DNA of 64,000 nt from Hyphococcus sp. (GTDB taxonomy: Bacteria; Pseudomonadota; Alphaproteobacteria; Caulobacterales; Parvularculaceae), in assembly GCA_021776245.1 (NCBI GenBank), contig JAJFGF010000039.1:124001-188000 (forward strand). Direction: 5' to 3'. Shown here piece after piece: positions 60,034 to 62,015 of the stretch; position 1 is the first letter of the stretch, and the number at the start of each line of letters is the position of its first letter. A program made the translations under genes and the position numbers. Below the pieces are notes generated by a model. The model was not told the origin of the DNA. It searched no databases and saw nothing but the letters and a program-made list of their open reading frames with translations.

Positions 60034-61005
60034 TTACTCGGCAACGCGCAATCGCGCCAAATCTCGCGCACGCTCACGTTTCAATTCATGGCGCGCCGTG
60101 CGCTTCACGAGAATATAAAGAATGAAATAACACATGGCGGCGCCAATGGCGGAAAGCCAAATCGGAAGGTGTTCAAAAATCGCTGAAAATCTATCATAGC
60201 TGAGCCCAAGCGCTTCGGCCAATCCAGGCGCCTCCTGTCCCAGCAGCAGCAACGCGCCGATACCGGTAAGCCCGAAGGCCAGCAGCCCTGCGAGAAGGGC
60301 CCCGATCGTCACGCCCATATCGGCATATTCCTCAGCCTTCGACACAATCATTTTTGACGGCTCGCCAGAAAGCGCTTGCGTCGCGGCAAACAGCGCGCGC
60401 GTACGCGCGGCTTTTTCTTCCGGCGCCAGTATTCTGTTTTTGTCCGCCCTGATCTCATCGAAATTTACCAGGGGCCTCGCCTTACGCACCGCGTCTGACA
60501 CATAATCGAGCTCGCATTCTTCAGCTGGCTTAACATCGGAACTGGGCACCACGAGAGAGGCGTCGGTCGGCATCAGGAAAAGCGATTTTTCAGCGGAACG
60601 CCTGCGCACCAAACCGTCCAGCGTCACCAGTTCATTATTGACGTGGGCTTTCGTCCACATTTCAAAGGCATTGGCGGCGCCGAGCTTGTCGCCGGCATTT
60701 AATTTGCGCAGCACTGTAGATCGGCGCCAATTGTCTTCGCCGATATTGAAAACCAGCGAGACGATCGCATCATGTTCATTTTGGTTAAGCGGCGCACGCA
60801 CAGTATCGCCTATCAATTGCTCAATGGGTTCCACATCCTGTTTCAGCAGATGTTCAGCGTCGCCCTCGGTGACGCTCATGCCATGGCGCGCGGTTGCCAC
60901 ATGACCGTACCCCACCGTCCATTGTTCGGTCGGCGCGTAATGGGCCGCCATGCGCAGCCCTTCATAGCCTTTGATCAGATTGAGACCGGTTTCTCCCGTC
61001 CGCAT
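60034..61005 (-). CDS. Phage-type lysozyme (GH24) with C-terminal membrane hairpin
   Basis: A 323-residue protein. Residues 1-145 form a T4/GH24-type lysozyme domain: catalytic Glu in IKGYEGLRMAAHY, WTVGYGH, VTEGDAEHLLKQDV, LNQNEHDAIVSLVFNIG and RRSAEKSLFL. A linker follows, then two transmembrane helices (GVTIGALLAGLLAFGLTGIGALLLL; LSAIGAAMCYFILYILV) and a basic tail. No phage genes are near, and no signal peptide leads the domain, so an SAR-like or cytoplasmic-facing enzyme is possible. The Asp expected nine residues after the Glu is not evident. It starts at ATG 61005, not the TTG at 61026. Confidence 0.85.
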   Translation of the reverse strand: MRTGETGLNLIKGYEGLRMAAHYAPTEQWTVGYGHVATARHGMSVTEGDAEHLLKQDVEPIEQLIGDTVRAPLNQNEHDAIVSLVFNIGEDNWRRSTVLRKLNAGDKLGAANAFEMWTKAHVNNELVTLDGLVRRRSAEKSLFLMPTDASLVVPSSDVKPAEECELDYVSDAVRKARPLVNFDEIRADKNRILAPEEKAARTRALFAATQALSGEPSKMIVSKAEEYADMGVTIGALLAGLLAFGLTGIGALLLLGQEAPGLAEALGLSYDRFSAIFEHLPIWLSAIGAAMCYFILYILVKRTARHELKRERARDLARLRVAE

Positions 61006-61434
61006 CAGAGCCGCCTTACCCCTCAACTCAATTTCCAGGACCCGCCTGAAAACCCCAATTGAAAACCATCACCGCGAATGCCCCTGGCCATCCGCGTTAA
61101 CGAATCCAATAGCACGCCGCGCCCCGGTTGTGTAGCCGGATGCAGGGCGTCCCAGGGCTCTTGCCGCCCGATTGTGTCATAATCGCACAGACCGGGGCCC
61201 CGCGCGTCCGGGACAATCGCCACGCGCATTGGCAGCGGCCTCTGCAACCACATGTAAGCGTGCAAATTTCCCCGGCAAATCAGCGATTTGCGGGTCATTT
61301 CCCCATAACGAAGGCGGGCTGTGCTGGCATGAGAATTGGGTAAATAGGGACGCATCGCCATGCTTGCCCGCCGGCGATGCGGGGTTTGCCATCAATTGGC
61401 GCGGGAAAAACGGGCAGGAACAGGCTTTGGAATT
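61006..61434. other. Gene-poor region between the lysozyme and the PEP-CTERM gene
   Basis: This interval has no gene that I can support. A minus-strand frame of 112 codons (61023-61361) is open, but it has no recognised fold and shows uneven codon use. The interval contains a 7-bp hairpin with a 3-base loop (GCAAATC-AGC-GATTTGC, 61275-61291) flanked by two copies of ATTTCCCC. It presumably carries the divergent promoters. Confidence 0.4.
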
Positions 61435-62015
61435 ATGTATATCGGCAATGGTTGGACCAATGTCCTCGCCGCCGCCATTATCGCGCTGGCGATTGTCTGG
61501 ACTGGCGGTTTCGGTGGAAAAAAATCCGCAAGCGATGAGGATTACGCCGCCTGGACCGCGCGTGCAGTCGGCGATATTCGCAACGATATTGTCGTCAATT
61601 GCGGATGCTGTGGCGACGAAGGCAAACGGAGGGCCGCCGCCCCTTTTTAGCCCCCCGCCCCGTTCCGCAGCGAATCGCCGGTTATGAACCGGCGCCTCCA
61701 GTGGAAACCGGGCGGGATCCGCACCAACAGGATGTCGCCATCAGGCCGGCGGCCGAAACTATACCCGAGCCGGTATTTCCGCCGCGCGAGCCGATTCATT
61801 TTCCTCCCTGGTTTTTGAACCCGCCGCCTTTTCCCGAGCCCCCTGTTGTGATTCCGCCGGAACCGCCCTGCGATCCGGAAGAAGATCCAGATTGTGAAGA
61901 ACCGCCTGAAGAACCGCCTACGGACGTTCCTGAACCGGGCGTATTGGCGATCTTGATGAGCGGCGGCGCAATCTATTGGTTGTTGCGAAGGCGCCGGGAT
62001 CGCCACACAACGTAA
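61435..62015 (+). CDS. PEP-CTERM-type protein encoded across a -1 frame change
   Basis: The first frame (61435-61650) gives a 71-residue start with a hydrophobic export-like segment (MYIGNGWTNVLAAAIIALAIVW) and a Cys-rich NCGCCGDEG, then TAG. The -1 frame, open from the slippery site to 62015, encodes a Pro-rich stretch (PEPVFPPREPIHFPPWF, PPFPEPPVVIPPEPP) and a classic sorting tail: PEPG, the helix VLAILMSGGAIYWLL, and RRRRDR. The tail lacks its own export signal, and PEP-CTERM proteins need one, so the frames probably make one 193-residue exosortase substrate. Programmed shifting or a frameshift mutation could explain the split. No exosortase gene is in the window. Confidence 0.6.
61641..61647 (+). 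other. Slippery heptamer C CCT TTT
   Basis: In the reading frame of the upstream part this is C-CCT-TTT, followed at once by the stop codon TAG. It fits the X XXY YYZ rule for -1 frameshifting, and a -1 slip leads into the Pro-rich/PEP-CTERM frame. Confidence 0.5.
61676..61694 (+). other. 8-bp hairpin downstream of the slippery site
   Basis: A perfect stem CGCCGGTT-ATG-AACCGGCG with a 3-base loop begins 28 bases after the heptamer. Classic stimulators sit 5-9 bases away, so its role in frameshifting is uncertain. Confidence 0.5.

Follow-up and report, generated by a model that had tools for sequence, protein, structure and literature searches.

The window analysed here, a 64,000-nucleotide stretch of the Hyphococcus sp. 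genome, holds a gene whose two halves lie in different reading frames, and it raises the question of whether this gene is broken or is decoded by a programmed change of frame. On the forward strand, a frame-0 ORF runs from ATG 61435 to TAG 61648–61650 and encodes 71 amino acids with a hydrophobic N-terminus, a RAVGDIRNDIVVNCG core and the C-terminal end AAAPF. The TAG stands immediately 3′ of the heptamer C_CCT_TTT at 61641–61647. From TTA 61647–61649 onward, the −1 frame continues for 122 codons to a stop that ends at 62015, and its product begins LAPRPVPQRIAGY and ends VPEPGVLAILMSGGAIYWLLRRRRDRHTT. These coordinates confirm the split at C_CCT_TTT, with TAG next to it, that an initial annotation of the locus had described; that annotation left the choice between programmed −1 frameshifting and a recent frameshift. 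We are highly confident that this is a cellular gene that ribosomes decode with a programmed −1 frameshift: the signals and their conservation are directly observed, and from them we infer the slippage itself. The features of the locus are as follows.

61435..61650, + strand: zero-frame ORF of 71 amino acids, giving the short unshifted product with its hydrophobic N-terminal segment (reading frames; pN/pS)
61459..61512, + strand: hydrophobic N-terminal segment NVLAAAIIALAIVWTGGF, a probable signal anchor or signal sequence (sequence; hydrophobicity)
61561..61614, + strand: nearly invariant core RAVGDIRNDIVVNCGCCG (invariant columns in the 23-row alignment A3)
61628..61633, + strand: Shine-Dalgarno-like GGAGGG, candidate upstream stimulator (predicted anti-SD pairing)
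61641..61647, + strand: slip site C_CCT_TTT, with T_TT(T/C) as its conserved part (orthologue comparison)
61648..61650, + strand: zero-frame stop TAG right after the slip codon (a stop there in 38 of 38)
61654..61716, + strand: downstream hairpin, putative stimulator, in which 61654–61660 pairs with 61710–61716 (folding; compensatory pairs; synonymous recoding)
61676..61681 with 61689..61694, + strand: terminal hairpin inside 61654..61716
61647..62015, + strand: −1 frame of 122 amino acids, comprising Leu, an RPVPxR[IL]AGY segment, a Pro-rich region and a PEP-CTERM tail (translation; pN/pS)
61926..61997, + strand: PEP-CTERM sorting domain with VPEP, transmembrane helix and Arg cluster (TIGR02595 above its curated cut-off)

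The N-terminal segment is hydrophobic in every full-length orthologue, and the core RAVGDIRNDIVVNCGCCG matched no NCBIfam family and gave only a Pfam match below the cut-off.

Each half of the gene was used as a separate query in 60 relatives, and the genomes with one half also carried the other, adjacent to it. The full comparison spans 38 species, drawn from the DNA of 30 genomes, 7 further ones and 1 found when 62 family genomes were searched. The initial annotation had held that a continuous frame in relatives would speak against its reading; the gene is continuous in none of the 38 orthologues, the search of the 62 family genomes included, and is split at one and the same codon in all of them. 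A split shared at one codon by 38 species is far beyond chance. While a single base would explain the split in any one genome, the reading that in this genome the gene is a pseudogene, was recently put out of frame by mutation or was misassembled is excluded because the identical split is conserved across independent assemblies, two isolates included; purifying selection on both parts also argues against it, and we consider its probability negligible. Also on its side is a metagenome-assembled genome (MAG; L107, the same as G444 and L150) in which a sense codon has become TAA roughly 33 nt ahead of the slip site with all else kept, either a consensus error or a decaying copy. Thus, of the two readings initially proposed, programmed frameshifting is supported by the conserved splits and by the signals described below, and the recent frameshift falls away.

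The orthologues span several genera of Parvularculaceae, including Marinicaulis, Amphiplicatus and MAGs. The two isolates are Marinicaulis flavus SY-3-19 (L102, identical to G022) and Amphiplicatus metriothermophilus (L098), and the remaining named carriers are MAGs assigned to Parvularculaceae, or unplaced Alphaproteobacteria that group with them. The gene is carried by 38 of the 62 family genomes and was absent from all 384 genomes sampled elsewhere in the class. Across carriers it adjoins the same lysozyme gene and usually also an MgtE gene. In the window this neighbour (60034–61026, − strand) encodes a phage-type lysozyme (PF00959) with hydrophobic C-terminal segments, and it is syntenic with the frameshift gene genus-wide. 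Each gene-carrying genome gave one strong match to the cassette; two weak extra matches, in G017 and G021, proved to come from this locus itself, on its other strand, and were discarded as additional copies. In one genome of the same genus (L076; G002:C21:381800-382500), the lysozyme and MgtE neighbours stand about 330 bp apart and the gene is missing, and from this apparent clean loss the gene is dispensable. Separately, three genomes of genus g4 carry a weakly similar N-terminal segment on a continuous frame of 366–393 amino acids, whose membrane segment reads MNGITNVIAALILGGAIIWG (L075 in G030; also G464 and G465). The G030 frame, the sole g4 frame that we read, ends without a PEP tail. This segment may be distantly related to the frameshift gene's N-terminal part.

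Both halves of the gene evolve as protein-coding sequence, each in its own frame. Summed over 32 sequences, pN/pS upstream of the site was 0.36 in frame 0 vs 1.4–1.5 in the other two forward frames, and downstream it was 0.66 in the −1 frame vs 1.2–1.3 in the other forward frames. The closest pair behaved likewise, with upstream values of 0.17 in frame 0 against 1.8 and 3.3, and downstream values of 0.34 in the −1 frame against 1.3 and 1.5. Because the ratio is low in frame 0 upstream and in the −1 frame downstream, protein-level selection changes frame at the site. An antisense ORF of 119 amino acids lies opposite the Pro-rich part (window 61647–62006, − strand); it gave no sign of coding of its own, and its pattern of change is roughly the mirror of the −1 frame.

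The initial annotation had placed the split at a canonical slippery heptamer. C_CCT_TTT is indeed present in the window, as it is in the nearest relative (G021) and three others, with C_CCT_TTC in one more species; it is nevertheless not the conserved unit, since the full heptamer occurs in only 6 of 38 species, and most have N_TCT_TTT. We therefore rejected the classical two-tRNA heptamer as an essential element: relatives kept the split frame and, in all but six species, not the heptamer. Immediately ahead of the stop, 37 species have TTT and one has TTC; the base preceding this codon is always T, and the codon ahead of TTY varies (TCT, CCT, GCT or GGT). Directly 3′ of TTY stands a stop in 38 of 38 species (TAG in 22, TGA in 10, TAA in 6), never a sense codon and never TGG, even though a tree built from both protein parts implies at least seven changes from one stop to another. 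The conserved slip unit is thus a U_UUY tetramer with a directly following stop. The first −1 codon after the slip always encodes Leu, as TTA, TTG or, in the TTC species (L105), CTA, and the residue after that Leu is variable (A, T, G, R or D). In E. coli, U_UUC and U_UUU rank next after A_AAG among tetramers for −1 slippage (PMC4066793). Single-tetramer slips with a pseudoknot reached only 0.26–5.6% in that host (PMC4066793). Frameshifting at the present site could be very inefficient.

A C-T5 run marks the site in nearly all species, and it would also suit slippage by RNA polymerase, which would add a base at the run and yield an edited mRNA translated normally into the long protein. We consider such transcriptional slippage very unlikely. 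The T run never exceeds five, and in L105 (the same as G454) TTTC interrupts it, yet the slippery U_UUC and the Leu are kept. Moreover, the adjacent stop, the fixed 6-nt spacer, the hairpin and the Shine-Dalgarno-like element suit ribosomes and are unneeded by a polymerase.

These last signals point back to ribosomal frameshifting. The spacer between the slip codon and the hairpin is 6 nt, constant across species, and stimulatory structures usually begin 5–8 nt downstream (PMC4066793). In the window, CCCGCCC pairs with GGGCGGG in a GC-rich stem that closes an extended hairpin with a minimum free energy (MFE) of −40.1 kcal/mol (z −4.7 vs dinucleotide shuffles); across species the MFE ranges from about −31 to −56 kcal/mol. 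The arms lie within coding sequence. The hairpin was also compared with recodings that preserve the −1 protein, using for all species codon weights from the window's long ORFs. It was more stable than the mean of these recodings in 37 of 37 species (mean z −2.6, range −0.85 to −3.9), only slightly so in G017, G011 and G013. Furthermore, two-sided changes were found in 7 hairpin pairs, vs 2.3 expected in shuffles and 0–2 in slid controls; covariation as good was seen in 0 of 500 shuffles, and the slid controls were worse. Compensatory examples include C-G to U-A in G013 and G003 and G-C to A-U in G024. A search for a known RNA element returned an Rfam match at chance level only (E 0.59). Upstream, predicted anti-SD pairing of GGAGGG amounted to −10.0 kcal/mol vs −5.5 for synonymous recodings, with a mean z of −2.8 for the element. 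The element is strong in about 28 of 36 species; in the closest relative (G021) and most g6 genomes it is weak or missing.

The same GGAGG resembles a ribosome binding site, and it could be taken to serve two overlapping genes, with the C-terminal protein made from an internal start aided by GGAGG or by termination-reinitiation. Candidate starts exist: TTG 61599 and ATG 61605 lie in the window's −1 frame upstream of the site, and in species with TGA a TTG coincides with the slip. However, in 14 of 37 species the open −1 frame, which closes 7–34 nt upstream of the slip, contains no ATG, GTG or TTG; 11 of these also lack a start at the slip, while three have TTG there. The candidate starts lie 5′ of GGAGG rather than downstream of it, and stop adjacency and the hairpin would be left unexplained. 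It would also be anomalous for a PEP-CTERM protein to have no N-terminal export signal, as 97% have one (PMC1569441). Overlapping genes are accordingly an exceedingly improbable account of the locus. Programmed frameshifting, by comparison, brings together what was found here: a slippery motif, a structure within 5–8 nt downstream, an optional SD-like stimulator, a conserved split and frame-wise coding selection. The architecture of these signals is dnaX-like.

The initial annotation was also right that the −1 frame encodes a Pro-rich stretch followed by a PEP-CTERM tail. The tail (61926–61997) scored 21.6 bits against TIGR02595, whose NCBI curated cut-off is 16, and is the best match to that model in the genome; against Pfam PF07589 it scored 18.6, just under the cut-off of 20.7. 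Only 14 of 24 tails matched TIGR02595 at E 0.01. The N-terminal segment and the tail would share a polypeptide only via the frameshift, and a basic n-region, usual at such N-termini, is missing; an N-terminal export signal is found in 97% of PEP-CTERM proteins (PMC1569441). From the N-terminal segment and the PEP-CTERM helix, the positive-inside rule would place the Cys core and the Pro-rich region in the periplasm. The proposed search of the genome for an exosortase was also borne out, with two PF09721 matches in the window's own genome (G000). One exosortase adjoins an ordinary PEP-CTERM gene (C41:196992-197762 and 198025-198099). The tail of that neighbouring gene (G000:C41:196992-198099; L118) is of the VPVPAALPLLFSGLAGLAF type, unlike the frameshift gene's own tail, which is of the VPEPG type, and the two tail types may serve two different exosortases. 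An exosortase was present in 30 of 30 gene carriers checked, and also in genomes without the gene (G002, G018, G028, G030 and G034). The other clear PEP-CTERM genes read in this genome each occupy one uninterrupted frame and begin with a classical signal peptide; the frameshift is therefore special to this gene.

We propose that most ribosomes probably stay in frame 0, stop after the Phe codon and release a membrane-inserted protein of about 71 amino acids with its NCGCC core. Some would pause with Phe-tRNA on UUU or UUC just before the stop codon, delayed by the hairpin that starts 6 nt downstream and, in most species, additionally by anti-SD pairing with the upstream GGAGG. Phe-tRNA would then re-pair one base back on UUU, a Leu codon would follow, and a protein of about 193 amino acids would result, gaining the Pro-rich stretch and the C-terminal PEP-CTERM tail as a putative exosortase substrate. 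The signal would thereby set the ratio between an untagged protein and a form sent to exosortase processing and surface display; because the unshifted product is without the tail, frameshifting would set the fraction tagged for exosortase.

The resemblance to E. coli dnaX (tau/gamma) lies in the upstream SD-like element, slippery codons, downstream hairpin and two products that share an N-terminus. The closest match is with dnaX of a few bacteria, where shifting yields the long form and the frame-0 stop directly follows the site (PMC5009743), as in the PEP-CTERM frameshift gene. In contrast to the A_AAA_AAG of dnaX, the slip site here is U_UUY (Phe) with a stop beside it; the gene is unrelated, and what the shift adds to the product is a sorting tail. 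Transposases of the IS1 and IS3 families also use U_UUY tetramers with downstream structures and sometimes an SD element (PMC4066793); unlike these, the present gene is a syntenic chromosomal gene beside lysozyme and MgtE genes, in one copy per genome and with no transposase. Few cases of conserved frameshifting are known in chromosomal genes outside mobile elements (PMC5009743). Among rare cellular bacterial genes, csoS2 and copA yield two proteins via −1 frameshifting (PMC5009743), but there the shift shortens the product, whereas here it lengthens the product and adds the PEP-CTERM tail. The gene shares with PEP-CTERM/exosortase proteins the VPEP motif, the transmembrane helix, the C-terminal basic cluster and an exosortase in the genome; ordinary PEP-CTERM genes of the genome are continuous, whereas its tail is reached only by frameshifting. 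We found nothing in the open-licence PMC literature that pairs PEP-CTERM with frameshift or frameshifting, or Parvularculaceae with frameshift. What appears to be new is the gene itself, a slip on a single codon abutting a stop, and an output that consists in gaining a sorting tail.

Gene callers are predicted to miss such genes or to report them in pieces. The small size of the U_UUY-stop-hairpin cassette makes it directly testable in E. coli or in cultured Marinicaulis flavus. As a speculative and rather doubtful extension, the 'shifty stop' may be regulated, such that the share of tailed product would vary with release-factor activity, the state of Phe-tRNA or the speed of translation; if so, surface display would be tuned by the state of the ribosome. 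For the Parvularculaceae that carry this gene, the frameshift would represent a new kind of output, in which a membrane protein gets its C-terminal surface-sorting tag only if the frame is shifted.
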